Below, one piece after another: positions 7,475-60,188 of a stretch of DNA of 64,000 nt. This stretch comes from Odiellus spinosus (Eukaryota > Arthropoda > Arachnida > Opiliones > Phalangiidae), in the NCBI GenBank assembly GCA_963920705.1, contig OY987231.1, forward strand, positions 22,855,024 through 22,919,023, written 5' to 3'. How positions within the stretch are numbered: position 1 is the first letter of the stretch; every line of letters starts with the position of its first letter. The translations under genes were made by a program, and so were the position numbers. Below the pieces are notes generated by a model. The model saw nothing but the letters and a program-made list of their open reading frames with translations. It searched no databases and was not told the DNA's origin.

Positions 7475-8078
7475 GGTTCATTTGCTCGACTTCCAATTGA
7501 TCGACAAGGAGTTCGTTTGATCGACTACCGTTTGATCGACTCCCATTTGATCGACAAGCCATTCCAATTGATCGACAGCCCAGTTTTTTAGCGAGTAACG
7601 AGTACAGGTCAAAGTTTTTTTGCAAGAAACTAATAAAGGTTAAATTATGGTATATAAATTAAATTATGGTTAGGTTAGGTTGGTTAATCTATTTATAATC
7701 GTTATTACGAAGTTGACCAATTGGGAAACGATCAAATGCACCCTTTGTCGATCATTTGGGAGTCGATCAAGTGGACCTTTTGTCGATCATTTGGGAGTCT
7801 ATCAATTGTGAGTCGATCATTTGGGTGTCGATCAAGTGGACCTCTTGTCGATCATTTGGGAGTCGATCAAGTGGACCTTTTGTCGATCATTTGGGAGTCT
7901 ATCAATTGTGAGTCGATCATTTGGGTGTCGATCAAGTGGACCTCTTGTCGATCATTTGGGAGTCGATCAAGTGGACCTTTTGTCGATCATTTGGGAGTCT
8001 ATCAATTGTGAGTCGATCATTTGGGTGTCGATCAAGTGGACCTCTTGTCGATCATTTGGGAGTCGATCAAGTGGACCC
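7475..8078. mobile_element. Foldback element K1 built of GATCGA subrepeats
   Basis: The left part (7475-7590) repeats TTTGATCGAC and variants every 17-25 bp. The right part (7727-8078) repeats the inverse, GTCGATCATTTGGGA and GTCGATCAAGTGG. The outer ends match as an inverted pair: GGTTCATTTGCTCGAC at left, and the complement of GGGTCCACTTGATCGAC at right. The spacer carries GGTTAGGTTAGGTTGG. The locus at 43718 has the same design. Open frames across the right arm only translate the repeats. Confidence 0.7.
7761..8077 (+). repeat. 100-bp tandem repeat, three identical units
   Basis: Units starting 7761, 7861 and 7961 are base-for-base identical as read; a fourth starts at 8061 and stops after about 17 bp. 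Each unit is made of five shorter GTCGATCA/GTCTATCA subunits. Identity implies recent expansion or recent copy correction inside the right arm of K1. Confidence 0.93.
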
Positions 8079-16894: not shown

Positions 16895-17330
16895 ATGGTC
16901 AGTAAAAGGTCAAGGAATTTAAAATTAAGCCAAAAGGTCAATTTATTTTAAATTTATTAAAAGGTCACGTACTTTAAAAAATTAGAATTAATATCAGGGA
17001 AAGGTCAGATTTTTGAAAATTGGTATTTAAAGGTCAATGTAAGGTCAATAACTTTGCATATTAATATTTGAAAGTCAATGTAAGGTCAATAACTTTGCAA
17101 ATTAATATTTAAAGGTCAATGTAATATCAGTAACTTTGCAAATTGATATTTAAGGGTCATGTAAGGTCAATAACTTCGAAAATTGATATTTAAAGGTCAA
17201 TGTAATATCAGTAACTTTGCAAATTGATATTTAAAGGTCATATAAGGTCAATAACTTTGAAAATTGATATTTAAAGGTCAATTAAAGGTCAATAACTTTG
17301 AAAATTGGACTTAAATGGTCATTCTAATCT
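16895..17330 (+). repeat. ~43-bp minisatellite rich in AAGGTCA
   Basis: Roughly nine units of the pattern AAAGGTCAATGTAAGGTCA, ATAACTTTGCAAATTGATAT. Units with AATATCAGTAACTTTGC alternate with units with AAGGTCAATAACTTTG, a two-unit higher order. AAGGTCA is the half-site bound by ERR/FTZ-F1-type nuclear receptors (established knowledge), but tandem amplification explains its abundance. The first units (16895-17000) are diverged. Confidence 0.85.
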
Positions 17331-25164: not shown

Positions 25165-25891
25165 ATGCAAAATTAATCCTTGATTTCAAAATTCCTTACA
25201 CCAAATCTTTGGTTATGTCCGACCCCTCGAGACGTGACTAAATTTGGTTAATCTGAACGGGACTTTACACTCTCATGTTCGCCATAAGGCGTGTACCACG
25301 GCTTTGCGCTATTTAGGAATGCAATTTTTTTTGGCGGGGTCCGCTATGAGTTTTCCAGCTCATCATCTTGGCTGGTATCAGCCGAGTCCTGGCTGGCGCT
25401 TTCGCCGCTTATTTGGACAGCTGGTGACACGCGGGTTCTTGGGTTTTCGCGCCGAAATGTTCCTGTCAACGAATCTATTAGCTTCGAGAGATCGCGCAAC
25501 CCTCGTTGAAGATCGTCCCGCTAGCGCTAAGCCTACTTTTATGTCCATATATCTCGTTGGGGGCCCCATTTCGCTAAAGACTGAGCGTGTCGTGACTTAG
25601 GTCTTTCTAGAGAGAGTTTCTAAAATACCTGTTGACAGAAAAGTTGTCGAGTAATGTTTTTAGTATTACAACCAAATGCTAAACTTCTTATATAGTATCC
25701 AATAAGAAGGAACTGTAAAATATTCGGAAATATCGTTTAAAAACAATTAAAAAATATATACATTATGAATAAATTATTACTTCAACAGTTGAAGAATAAT
25801 ATTTTACAATATTTGAAAGCTTCAGAATTTTTTAAAACAAAATTAAGCACGTATCACTATGCCCCCCTAGGTATTTATAGAGCCATTCTCC
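25165..25891. other. GC-richer block with overlapping frames, no identifiable gene
   Basis: From about 25200 to 25610 the base composition nears balance, and three overlapping frames stay open: 118 and 72 codons on +, 63 on -. I recognise no domain. Similar openness in opposing frames argues for composition rather than coding. A diverged exon or the interior of a transposon remains possible. Confidence 0.3.
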
Positions 25892-25938
25892 CACGTGATA
25901 TGGTTACTTTCGCGCCGTATTTTTCGTGAAAGTACTTT
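25892..25938 (-). repeat. Second dispersed motif (GCGCGAAA), instance 3
   Basis: On the complement strand: AAGTACTTTCACGAAAAA, then GGCGCGAAAGTAACC and ATATCACGTGGG. It matches the motif in the 4640 duplication and at 29461, 33794 and 42500. Confidence 0.72.
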
Positions 25939-26612
25939 AAACCTGAAATTCTTGTGTTTCATTTGAAATTTATTATTTACCAAGGCTTAGCAAAAAATAT
26001 TTGAGATATTAGGTTCTACATAAATATGACGTCACTGCGGACAAATGTGATATTATAAAAACGTACATATTAACCGGATGTTCGTTGAAATTATTTTCTT
26101 TTTAATTATGAATAATTTTCAAGACACCCAATTTATATAATTCGTATGATATTTTAAGTTGATGGTAATTATTCATTTTGTATTGTGTAATCATTCAAAA
26201 TCAAGCCGTTGATAAAAACGGACAGATAGTATATTAAGTGTAATTAAGTAATTAACTCCTATAGTTTCCGGAGACACGAGTGATTCTTAATCACACGCGA
26301 TCACGTGCAAAGCTGTAGAGGCTGTCGTAAATATGTACCGCGCAAGGCGTTTAATGTAAATAAGCTTTTACCTTAACTTATATGTGATGTTGTAAAAATG
26401 GGTCCTAAACCTACTCAACCATCACGAACCGCGTGACGTCTTTTAGCTTATAAAAACTAACGATTAAATATAAAATGGAGATTTGCTCAAATATATCGTG
26501 AAATAATCTATATCGTCTTTAATCTCTTAAAGGAATAGTAGCTTCTTCGATATTATAAAAATTTTAAATTTAAATGTAGCAATTGTTGAATGCGCGCCCT
26601 GAAACGCTAGAT
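25939..26612. other. No recognisable feature
   Basis: AT-rich; a GATCACGTG word at 26300. No coding frame. Confidence 0.5.
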
Positions 26613-27345
26613 TTTCTAGAAGCTTCTGGACTTCTCCACACTTTTCTGGAAGCTTCTGGACTTCTCCACACTTTTCTGGAAGCTTCTGGACTTCTCCACA
26701 CTTTTCTGGAAGCTTTTAGACTTCTCCACACTTTTCTGGAAGCTTTTAGACTTCTCCACACTTTTCTGGAAGCTTCTAGACTTCTCCACACTTTTCTGGA
26801 AGCTTCTAGGACTTCTCCACATTTTTCTGGAAGCTTCTAGGACCTCTCCACGTTTTTCTGGAAGCTTCTAGACTTCTCCACATTTTTCTGGAAGCTTCTA
26901 GACTTCTCCACATTTTTCTGGAAGCTTCTAGACTTCTCCACATTTTTCTGGAAGCTTCTAGACTTCTCCACATTTTTCTGGAAGCTTCTAGACTTCTCCA
27001 CATTTTTCTGGAAGCTTCTAGACTTCTCCACATTTTTCTGGAAGCTTCTAGACTTCTCCACATTTTTCTGGAAGCTTCTAGACTTCTCCACACATTTCTG
27101 GAAGCTTTTAGACTTCTCTCCACACTTTTCTGAAAGCTTCTAGGACTTCTCCAAACTTTTTTGGAAGCTTCTAGGACTTCTCCACACTTTTCTGGAGGCT
27201 TTTAGACTTCTCCACACTTTTCTGGAAGCTTTTAGACTTCTCCAAACTTTTCTGGAAGCTTTTAGACTTCTCCACACTTTTCTAGAAGCTTCTAGGACTT
27301 CTCCACACTTTTCTGGAAGCTTTTAGACTTCTCCACACTCTTCTG
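26613..27345. repeat. Tandem array of 24 heat-shock-element units
   Basis: A 30-bp unit (TTCTGGAAGCTTCTAGAC, then TTCTCCACATTT) recurs 24 times plus a stub. TTCnnGAAnnTTC, the canonical three-pentamer heat-shock element bound by HSF, is perfect in about 15 units by my count (units 1-3, 6-16 and 23), and most of these extend to a fourth partial pentamer. Units 9-16 are essentially identical, and the flanking units carry substitutions (GCTTTTAGA, CTAGGAC). Frames run open on both strands only because the unit is a multiple of three; there is no reason to call protein. HSF binding is inferred from the motif alone. Confidence 0.92.
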
Positions 27346-27346
27346 G

Positions 27347-27364
27347 AAAACGTTACGGACGTAA
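27347..27364. other. Perfect short palindrome at the array's right edge
   Basis: ACGTTACGGACGTAACGT: 8-bp arms around a 2-base centre, directly after the last heat-shock unit. Confidence 0.6.
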
Positions 27365-27641
27365 CGTAAATTAAGTGTTTGACGATAGAAGGTACTATGA
27401 CTTTATGATCAATTGACAAGATGTTAGAAAGCATAAGGCGGAGTAACACTCAATGTAAAACCCAATACAAAACTACTTTTTCTATCCGAAATATTGTTTT
27501 CAGATGCAATAGAGGAAATTGTTTTGAAATTATAGATCATTTTCAAAATACTCGTAGCTTATCAAGCGTATTATTTCAACGAGATATTCGCGTGTATTTT
27601 TAACACCCTCTTATACGCCAATCTTATTATAACTAACGAAA

Positions 27642-27692
27642 TTACAGCGGTGTAATACTTAATGTTAAAACGCCATAAACTTAAAGTAGTAC
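27642..27692 (-). repeat. Dispersed 50-bp motif, instance 9
   Basis: Complement strand: GCGGTGTAATACTTAATG, TTAAAACGCC, TTAAAGTAGT. Confidence 0.68.
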
Positions 27693-27884
27693 GATATAGA
27701 GCGTTATTGGGTAAAAATAAATATTAAATTATTTGAAAGTTGGTTCCTTTTAGGACGTATACTTTTAATATATTCATAACTATTAAAATAAAATCTAACA
27801 ATATAATCTTCATGGTTATAGAATTTCAAAAACCACCGTTAACATCGATTTTATCCAACAGTGATGAATTGCCTAGCTATTGTT

Positions 27885-28883
27885 TTAAAGGGATAGTGAA
27901 ATGGTGTTAGGGATAAATTAGACTCTTCAAGTTACTCGTAGTGTGAAGTTCTCCCGCTGAAATAAATTCAATATCTTGATTTTAGTTCTGGGAATTTCTA
28001 ACTTTTATTATTTGGAATATTTTTACTTTATTTTCCCTTTGTTTAAAAATATACTATTAATCAATTCAGTTAACTTAAACAAGGTGAAATTAAAAATACG
28101 TATATTTTTATCTGGAAATATCCTTAATGGATAAGAAAATTTCAAATTTTCGAATTGTAACTAAATTTGAAATAAATTTTAATTTTCTACAAATTCTAAG
28201 AATATTAATTTTCTTATCCAACGTCGTTATACCTTTTAATTCGAGTAATTTATTAATAGATAAAGCCAGTGTGACCACTTTTCCTATTTTTTCCTATATT
28301 TTCACCTTTTCTCCTATAATTTAATGTCAATTCCTATAATCTCCTATATTTCAACCCAAAATCTCTAGTTAAGGGTAAAGTTCTAAATCATCCTGTCAGC
28401 CGTGGCTGTATAAGATTATTTTAGCTTAACTGTACATTTTCCAGTTAAAATAGTCTGTAAAATTCCATACTATTTAAGCAATTGGATCATATTAATACCA
28501 CGTTTAAACCGGTGGCGAGAGTTGTGACGCGATAATAAACATGGTTCCTACTTTTAATTATATTCCTATTTTATCATATATTTTCCACTTATTTCTTCCT
28601 ATTTTATCCTATATTTTACATAAAATTCTTCCTATATTTTCCTATTTTCGCAATGAAATTTCCTATATAGGATTTTCAAATTTTCAGTGGTCACCCTGTA
28701 AAGCTTCAAACTTATTTATCTTTGGATAATTAAACCCATTATCCATTTAAATTTTATCTGAATTTACCAATTTCATATTTTAAACATAAGCAATCGAAAA
28801 ATAAAATCTGCAAAAATATTCCGAGCACTGAGGTTAAAATGTGTTTTATTTCTTAAATCTGATATTTCATTATCCCTTTTTAA
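27885..28883. mobile_element. TTAA element carrying a nested MITE
   Basis: TTAAAGGGATAGTGAAATGG at left; TTTCATTATCCCT near TTAA at right. The right side has two extra T bases. The span of ~1 kb includes the 432-bp family N element at 28267, leaving ~570 bp. Pairing of the ends is likely but not certain. Confidence 0.65.
28267..28698 (+). mobile_element. MITE family N, copy 1
   Basis: 432 bp; left end CAGTGTGACCACTTTTCCTA, right end complement of CAGGGTGACCACTGAAAA. TAAAGC stands on both sides (28261-28266, 28699-28704), a 6-bp repeat. Repeated TTCCTAT words fill the subterminal parts, and a conserved 180-bp middle is shared with the copy at 40021 at about 90% identity. Confidence 0.88.
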
Positions 28884-31384: not shown

Positions 31385-31960
31385 AATGTTTTAAAATTCT
31401 AGGAAAAATCTAGAAATTTGAAACTTTACCAAACAATCAGGGAAAAATCCTGAAATTTCAAAATTAACCCAAATAATTTGGGAAAATCCTGAAATTTTGG
31501 AAATTCATCTAAATAATCAGGGAAAAGTACTGAAATTTCAAAACTCATCTAGATAATTAAGGGAAAAATTCTGAGATTTCAAAATTTACCCAAATAATTT
31601 GGGAAAATCCTGAAATTTTGGAAATTCATCTAAATAATCAGTGAAAAGTACTGAAATTTCAAAACTCATCTAAATAATCAGGGAAAAAAAGTGAAATTTT
31701 AAAATTCACTCAAATAATTTGGGAAAATCCTGAAATATTAAAATTCTTCTAAATAATCAGGGAAAAATACTGAAATTTCAAAATTTATCCAAATAATTTG
31801 GGAAAATCCTGAAATTTTTGAAATTCATCTAAATAATCAGGGAAAAATACTGAAATTGGGAAATTAACTCAAAAAGTTGAGGGTAAATTTAAGAATCTGA
31901 AAATTCATCCAAATATCTGTAAAAATCTGAAACTCCACTCAATTAATCAATGAGAGTCGA
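31385..31960 (+). repeat. ~43-bp minisatellite with AATCAGGGAAAA
   Basis: About 13 units of the type AATCAGGGAAAAATCCTGAA, ATTTCAAAATTNACCCAAAT. Two unit types alternate: AATAATTTGGGAAAATCCTG and AATAATCAGGGAAAAGTACT, giving a ~83-bp higher-order repeat. The right end fades into unique sequence. Confidence 0.87.
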
Positions 31961-37020: not shown

Positions 37021-37447
37021 CGTACACAATTTGGGGAACCTGGAAAAGTTAGGGAATTCGGAAATTGGACCAAAATTAAGGTCAGGGAATTTGAAACCCT
37101 CGTTTGAAACTTGACACAAAAGGTCAGGGAAAACTCGGGGAATTTTAAAATTGCTCCAAAAGGTCAGGGAACAGTCAGGGAATTTGAAAATGAACCCAAA
37201 TAGTCAGAGAATAGTCAGGGAATTTGAAAATTGCCTCAAAAGGCCATGGAACAGTCAGGGAATTTGAAATTTGCCTCATACGACCAGGGAACAGTCCGGG
37301 AATTTGAAAATGAGCCCAAATAGTCAGAGGATAGTCAGGGAATTTGAAAATGAGCCCAAATAGTCAGAGGATAGTCAGGGAATTTGAAAATGAGCCCATA
37401 TAGTCAGAATTTTCAAATTGGCTCAAAAGGTCAGGGTAAAGTCGGGG
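37021..37447 (+). repeat. ~43-bp minisatellite with GTCAGGGAATTTGAAAAT
   Basis: About nine units of GTCAGGGAATTTGAAAATTG plus CCTCAAAAGG or CCCAAATAGTCAGAG. Units with TAGTCAGAGGATA are duplicated almost exactly at 37320-37400. It shares its core with the subterminal repeats of MITE family A. The right edge runs directly into family E sequence at 37448. Confidence 0.87.
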
Positions 37448-59179: not shown

Positions 59180-59608
59180 TTGATCCATTGAACTTACTCT
59201 AAAAGTAGGCTTAACAACGATCCATTGAACTTACTACGAAAAGTAGGCTTAACAACGATCCATTGAACTTACTACGAAAAGTAGGCTTAACAACGATCCA
59301 TTGAACTTACTACGAAAAGTAGGCTTAACAACGATCCATTGGACTTACTACGAAAAGTAGGCTTAACAACGATCCATTGAACTTACTACGAAAAGTAGGC
59401 TTAACAACGATCCATTGAACTTACTACGAAAAGTAGGCTTAACAACGATCCATTGGACTTACTACGAAAAGTAGGCTTAACAACGATCCATTGAACTTAC
59501 TACGAAAAGTAGGCTTAACAACGATCCATTGAACTTACTCGAAATGTAGGCTTAACAACGATCCATTGAACTTAGTACGAAAAGTAGGCTTAACAACGAT
59601 CCATTGAA
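59180..59608 (+). repeat. 38-bp tandem array, about 11 units
   Basis: Unit: AACAACGATCCATTGAACTT, ACTACGAAAAGTAGGCTT. Eleven full units and a stub. Most are identical; the fifth and eighth read CATTGGACTT. First and last units are diverged, as expected for an array growing from within. Units abut directly, so there are no spacers and it is not CRISPR-like. Confidence 0.95.
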
Positions 59609-60188
59609 GTTAGACCAATCAGGCGCGTATTTGATATTATGAAATCTCTAAGTGAAACTCAAGATTTTATTTCTTTGGCATTTCATTCCCGTGTTACGGT
59701 TTCTGTTAATATTAGGGGCGGGTATATGGTTTTGATCTCCTCGCAAATTCCCTTATGGCTATCTTTAGTTCAAAATTAAGTGCTATATAAGACAAGATTC
59801 GGCTTCTCCAATTTTTGAGATTTTTACGACATAAAAAAAACCACTTTCGATAAATTGAAATTTAGTTATTTTTCTTGGAAACCACGACGTCTCTTATCAA
59901 ATGTTACCATCTTAATGCGATTATTTTCACAGTATTTTTCCCTTCAATGTTTTATGGGTTTCTAGACCGGTCTGATAGTGTTTAATTTAGTTTTTAGGCC
60001 TAGTTTTCACAAAGTTTACGCCTATAATTTAATCTTAAAGTTGTCTTGTTCAATCGATAGGCCTAGGGCTATTAAAAATGGACACTCATCTTAAGAATAA
60101 TAAAAAATTCTGGTTTTCATAGCGTCCTCTAACGGCAAATTAATTTAAGGCCTAAACAATATGATACATCCCATTCATTTTGTATTAA
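59609..60188. other. No recognisable feature
   Basis: Nothing recognised. Confidence 0.5.

Follow-up and report, generated by a model that had tools for sequence, protein, structure and literature searches.

A 30-bp tandem array of heat-shock elements in Odiellus spinosus, probably the body of an old and truncated Helitron

The tandem array of heat-shock elements (HSEs) described here is probably the body of a non-autonomous Helitron, old and truncated at its 3' end, which carries an HSE-like chain and belongs to a dispersed family, in an arrangement resembling that of Caenorhabditis. We rate this reading at about 0.68, lowered from 0.70 owing to a single array (L056, see below). The array resides in the window, i.e. 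the whole stretch of 64,000 nucleotides analyzed, corresponding to C7:22855024-22919023 in a genome of 286 contigs and 443 Mb (G+C content of the window, 32.8%). Helitrons with HSEs are already known in Caenorhabditis; a family of HSE-array Helitrons in another lineage may be new. No HSE-array Helitrons outside nematodes were recognised among the open-access matches listed, judged by titles and abstract starts, a result which does not prove their absence. Features of the window copy, and the ends matched at all arrays of the family, are collected in Table 1.

Table 1. Features of the window copy and ends matched at the arrays of the family
Feature	Position or locus	Strand	Basis
Helitron-type 5' terminus (putative), TC at 27382-27381, TCAAACACTTAATTTACGTTACGTCCGTAACGTTT into array	27348..27382	-	pre-array 5' model from 5 other loci, window excluded
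Tandem array of 24 thirty-bp units, the probable element body (element orientation)	26612..27348	-	repeat finding, unit cutting, motif counts, 10-bp register common to other arrays
Expected place of 3' hairpin and CTRR, unrecognisable: ...TTCTAGAAAATCTAG then CGTTTCAGGGCGCGC	26590..26611	-	sequence reading
131-aa stop-to-stop frame through array, likely a by-product (30 bp = 10 codons)	26806..27201	-	frame list
Both ends matched	L035, L042, L069, L071, L072		end models
5' leader only	window, L040 (twice), L070		end models
3' end only	L036, L037		end models
Neither end by model	L041, L056		end models

The array spans 737 bp, with a Helitron-type end on one side, and is reported by Tandem Repeats Finder, run on the window, with period 30, 24.3 copies, 94% matches and a score of 1201. 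Cutting at AGCTT or GGCTT yields 24 units: 17 have 30 bp, five have 31 bp and one has 32 bp; the last was taken as one with the partial repeat that follows it. Read on the plus strand, the array holds 15 perfect TTCnnGAAnnTTC sites, 12 of which run into a fourth, imperfect pentamer (GAC). Both counts confirm an earlier sequence-only reading of this DNA, which had given 24 units of 30 bp, about 15 of them with a perfect site. Its description of the array as a dense target for heat-shock factor (HSF) is borne out at the level of motifs: the window as a whole holds 18 sites, all on the plus strand, where 100 dinucleotide shuffles average 1.51 (sd 1.19) and reach 5 at most. A per-unit estimate of chance is fairer than this window-wide one, because the units are copies of each other, and a three-pentamer site is formed in 186 of 400,000 shuffled circular 30-mers. 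The homogeneity ascribed to units 9-16 is confirmed, units 9-15 being identical and unit 16 differing in the last base. Each unit is made up of three 10-bp steps in a TTCnnGAAnn-like register, on the minus strand GTCTAGAAGC TTCCAGAAAA GTGTGGAGAA.

The same reading had found no Helitron ends visible. A 5' end is recognised by its model on the minus strand at 27382-27348, and relatives with both ends exist; the end was probably missed earlier because it lies on the other strand. With both strands of the 64 kb considered, the pre-array 5' model scores highest at this stretch, with 8.3 bits against 4.5 for the runner-up. The score of the leader alone is weak (E 0.13, window), and rises to 42.8 bits (E 1e-11) when the first array units are included; from position and direction the match appears convincing despite the weak score. 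At the other side, the three best matches of the 3' model in the window lie elsewhere, with at most 5.2 bits. As hairpin and CTRR end are unrecognisable there, the window copy is most likely old, and 3'-truncated or decayed. It is probably also inert for transposition, since it has no 3' end and the frame list offers no transposase, none being found among the window's stop-to-stop frames of at least 110 aa (seven in number). Rfam gives no match in the window at gathering threshold, and none at E 0.01 in 24 other loci. The absence of a nearby gene, noted in the sequence-only reading, was checked against this frame list and Rfam, which fall short of a gene prediction. Six weak microRNA-type Rfam matches in the window, and five in eight array loci, are far below the family cut-offs and were taken as chance.

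The fuller elements of the family share a layout, in which a 5' leader starting TCAAACACTATTAATTTACAATG is followed by the array, and this by a hairpin and CTAG before T. The sample comprises 77 loci, with 40 genome loci that carry two or more perfect sites within 300 bp, plus L056, an array with no perfect site. Overlaps were merged (L009-L027 and L039, which are the window locus; L028-L034 and L041; L002, L003 and L071; L037 and L038), leaving 12 loci with 13 arrays; a match at C11:14371308 and a cluster at C1:232888 were left out. By the end models, 11 of the 13 arrays match at least one terminus, and five match both. Arrays start about 30-55 bp inside the 5' terminus. The leader reads TCAAACACTATTAATTTACAATGTCTGTACGTCCGTAACTTTTTCTAGAATG... 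in L040, with close versions in L035, L042, L069 and L072, and partial ones in L070, L071 and the first array of L040. The 3' side reads ...TCTAGAAAACTCCCGTGATTTTTCGCGGGTGTATGCTAG before T in L042, and versions of it are found in L035, L036, L069, L071, L072 and L037.

In leave-one-out profiles, the top-scoring stretch of each locus was the end left out, placed at the array edge and correctly oriented, for all five 5' ends tested (E 4e-9 to 0.002) and all six 3' ends tested (E 2e-7 to 0.02); the seeds had first been chosen by eye, and the test shows mutual resemblance, not the total number of ends. Matches outside the seeds score modestly, with 13.3 to 14.8 bits for the first L040 array, for L070 and for the 5' end of L071, 12.1 for L037 and 8.3 for the window. 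When the window and 52 loci were searched, 31 of these loci, L056 not among them, lacking a pair of perfect sites within 300 bp, E values below 0.001 among the 45 best rows per model were confined to array loci (the models held some array bases). Four stretches of contig C1 were chosen solely for TTCnnGAAnnTTC sites at multiples of 10 bp, before the ends were known, leaving out the C1:232888 cluster and some pairs: the 5' leader is matched in all four, partially in L070 and L071, and the 3' end in three.

Published descriptions of Helitrons name as marks a 5'-TC, a hairpin on the 3' side, CTRR and AT flanks (PMC6544945; PMC4344730). The 5' start is TC in L035, the second array of L040, L069, L072 and the window (27382), TG in L042 and L071. 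The preceding base is A in five of seven copies, G in the window copy and L040, and the base following the 3' end is T in all six copies aligned. Four of the six aligned 3' ends feature an exact CTRR (CTAG or CTAA), the other two ATAG and CTAT. A hairpin of the CCCGTGA/TCACGGG type, ranging from intact to decayed, is found in the aligned 3' ends, and folds better than the shuffle mean in the three copies folded (z -3.35, -1.79 and -2.25). A 3' end proposed by eye for L056 (GCTAG before T) reaches 2.3 bits only, and was left uncounted. In L040 two family leaders, the first partial, lie less than 1 kb apart (599-800 and 1502-2410), each followed by an HSE array; neither array has a recognisable 3' end.

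The TTCnnGAAnnTTC motif is not special to the window array. Genome-wide it has 9233 occurrences on one strand and 9235 on the other, the reversed pattern 3596 and 3609, a control not matched for dinucleotides, so that the excess serves as a guide only. Among the first 100 sites listed, 34 fall in four members of this family of arrays, namely L069, L070, L071 and L072. The unit itself behaves differently. A 27-base core of it matches the genome at 0 or 1 mismatch solely at the window locus, in keeping with the expectation that the 30-mer would not prove common genome-wide, though the 10-bp register recurs. At up to 3 mismatches the core has 33 genome matches: all 19 on the forward strand are at the window locus, 13 of the other 14 in four examined arrays (on C3, C6, C8 and C11), and the remaining one is the C11:14371308 match left out. 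A DNA search with 25600-28400 retrieved, among the best 40 of 2278 candidates, its own locus, three more array loci at 69-72% identity and a fourth at 67%.

Related arrays sit on C1, C2, C3, C6, C8, C11 and C13, measure about 0.1-1.1 kb, and are mostly bounded by Helitron-type ends. Steps of 10 bp (TTCTAGAAnn, GTCTGGAAAA and the like) largely make up the arrays of L035, L036, L037, L040 (two arrays), L041, L042, L056 and L069-L072. Several have been amplified as higher-order units, of 20, 30, 40, 50, 90 or 140 bp. The five elements that match both termini contain clustered HSEs: perfect sites are numerous in L035, L042 and L069, and number two in L071 and in L072. L056 keeps the 10-bp register with no perfect TTCnnGAAnnTTC, and is the sole such array among the 13. 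Five viral contigs of IMG/VR (L073-L077) match a six-pentamer HSE pattern, and each packs 5 to 8 three-pentamer sites into 300 bp; the 3' hairpin has no match among the viral contigs.

HSE positions are not better conserved than the rest of the unit, contrary to what the sequence-only reading would have led one to expect of a functional target. Within nine arrays, mismatches to the array consensus affect 149 of 2961 HSE core positions (5.0%) and 131 of 2312 spacer positions (5.7%; p = 0.32). Between seven copies, over the 50 bp behind the leader, the figures are 18 of 182 (9.9%) for the core and 15 of 140 (10.7%) for the spacer (p = 0.85). Neither comparison thus lends support to selection on HSE bases; the copies are probably dead insertions, in which selection on an active source lineage need not show. 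The most variable positions within arrays are the core G and the first T (57 of 578 each), the least variable is A7 (2 of 578). The consensus of the seven copies behind the leader, TCCCAGAATG TTCTAGAAGG TTCCAGAAAA GTCTGGAGAG GTCTAGAAAA, is an in-phase pentamer chain. Over the 13 arrays, consensus letters of the core reach.56 (T),.83 (T),.85 (C),.88 (G),.95 (A) and.87 (A), those of the spacers.75,.56,.84 and.59; C3, G6 and A7 set the register, and these columns are circular.

The equal variability of core and spacers, both within arrays and between copies, is what a neutral Helitron minisatellite would display, namely a 10-bp repeat resembling the HSE by chance, grown by slippage and meaningless for HSF. 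This explanation, doubtful on balance, is the most serious of the alternatives. It would accommodate L056, which keeps the register with no perfect site, and it has parallels in insect Helitrons that carry other internal repeats, as the variable CTGT microsatellite described in Hel-2 (PMC4344730), and in the AGGTCA-type minisatellite of the same window, since motif-like units arise with no known function. It does not predict, however, a motif as rare in shuffled units as the three-pentamer HSE (the 186 in 400,000 given above), nor a pentamer chain already in phase next to the leader in seven copies, and the core letters of the 13 arrays exceed most spacer letters (with the circularity of C3, G6 and A7 noted).

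Repeats phased at 10 bp, about one per helical turn, might alternatively be iteron-like sites for Rep-helicase or for single-strand binding, HSF being irrelevant. Rolling-circle replicons carry iterons, and both the placement of the arrays close inside the 5' terminus and the persistence of the 10-bp register across differing higher-order periods would suit such a role; yet in L071 and L072, where both ends are matched, the array measures just about 100-150 bp, so a long array is seemingly not required, and we regard the idea as unlikely. The suggestion of the sequence-only reading, that the array is an independent satellite or HSF sink with no transposon origin, could draw on the restriction of the unit core to the window locus at 0 or 1 mismatch, and on the missing 3' end of the window copy. 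Related arrays in the same genome carry both Helitron-type ends, an end of this type adjoins the window array itself, and register and ends recur, 11 of the 13 arrays (window included) matching at least one; independent origin, now very unlikely, was set aside on these grounds. Scarcely credible is a gene for a repeat protein, encoded by the 131-aa frame. The frame is indeed open on the minus strand over the interval of Table 1, but 30-bp units keep any open frame open, the 31- and 32-bp units break it, and a transposon end bounds the array; a gene in the array was set aside on frame grounds.

In the Helitron reading preferred here, the element would lie on the minus strand, with a 5' TC at 27382, a leader of about 35 bp and a chain of 10-bp steps (nTTCnnGAAn), amplified in the window as a 30-bp higher-order unit; fuller relatives close with the hairpin and CTAG before T. 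In the ancestral element, heat-shock pentamers may have formed a row close behind the 5' end. Trimers of HSF, activated by heat, would bind there and turn on the transposase promoter of an autonomous partner, and copying would follow stress. Slippage or unequal exchange would have lengthened this row separately at each locus, which would account for higher-order units that differ between loci and for the homogenised middle of the window array (units 9-16). Every insertion would leave a dense block of potential HSF sites, and HSF may bind the arrays, as their motifs suggest. That HSF-responsive Helitrons arose or spread outside Caenorhabditis, that heat mobilises the element and seeds HSF-dependent regulation, and that this is a recurring strategy of rolling-circle transposons, is a tentative proposal, with the odds somewhat against it.

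In C. elegans, HSF-1 binds HSEs in Helitrons, and heat shock raises the level of their Rep-helicase RNA, an effect that depends on HSF-1 (PMC6927752; PMC6765114). HSE-bearing Helitrons are reported to supply a large share of genomic HSEs in Caenorhabditis, and a 2019 survey of UCSC metazoan genomes describes HSE enrichment in Helitrons only in its three Caenorhabditis, suggesting restriction to the genus (PMC6927752). The elements concerned (Helitron1_CE, HelitronY1/Y1A/Y4_CE, Helitron2_CE, Helitron7_CB) are likewise described as dispersed non-autonomous copies with clustered, overlapping tandem HSEs (PMC6927752). The analogy to these elements, drawn in the sequence-only reading, is upheld. 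Unlike in Caenorhabditis, the chain here fills nearly the whole element, in higher-order units of 20 to 140 bp; the likeness is one of arrangement, the response to HSF being putative. The hosts differ as well, the present genome (443 Mb) having 13 numbered contigs reaching beyond 4 Mb, while Caenorhabditis have six chromosomes and smaller genomes. Human satellite III, the satellite bound by HSF1, is a tandem repeat acting as HSF target, as the arrays putatively are here; satellite III is pericentric, whereas these arrays are dispersed and about 0.1-1.1 kb long. Pericentric satellite repeats are named among HSF1 targets in an editorial (PMC11431837).

Insect Hel-2, a non-autonomous element, has by its published description the same 5'-TC, a 3'-CTRR with hairpin, AT flanks and an internal tandem repeat behind the 5' part; this repeat is the CTGT microsatellite, not an HSE chain, and the likeness is drawn from the description (PMC4344730). 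Wheat Xuan-Feng Helitrons are reported as a family mobilised by heat with reduced methylation, and featuring a temperature-responsive promoter; the host is a plant, a tandem array is not mentioned in the account consulted, and the terms HSE and HSF are absent from the main text (PMC13286980). If the present reading is true, HSE-array Helitrons exist in a second lineage, which would suggest that transposons have exploited heat-shock factor more than once, or have passed the trick between hosts. The family would then offer a further natural case in which to study whether transposition under stress reshapes heat-shock regulation. An HSE array can look like an orphan satellite because the ends are short, and in the window copy are on the other strand and half lost.

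Further repeats reside in the window. The minisatellite with nuclear-receptor-like AGGTCA half-sites (17012-17322) is made up of 41-bp units, and holds 10 half-sites in 311 bp, two of them as direct repeats spaced by 5. A very homogeneous 38-bp array occupies 59182-59612 (11.4 copies, 96% matches). At 7721-8077 an array with GTCGATCA-like steps has a 100-bp higher-order unit at 98%; L070 likewise contains a TGTCGATCAA array, near 7711-7864. A 40-bp register with GGGAAAAATCCTGAAATTTC or TCAGGGAA steps characterises the arrays at 31402-31915 and 37103-37408, which are possibly other internally repeated transposons; shorter TCAGGGAATTT repeats occur elsewhere in the window. The edge of a dispersed repeat lies at 28261-28400, with at least 36 genome matches at 86-93% identity among the best 40 of 2278 candidates; the query ended at 28400, and the repeat probably extends further.
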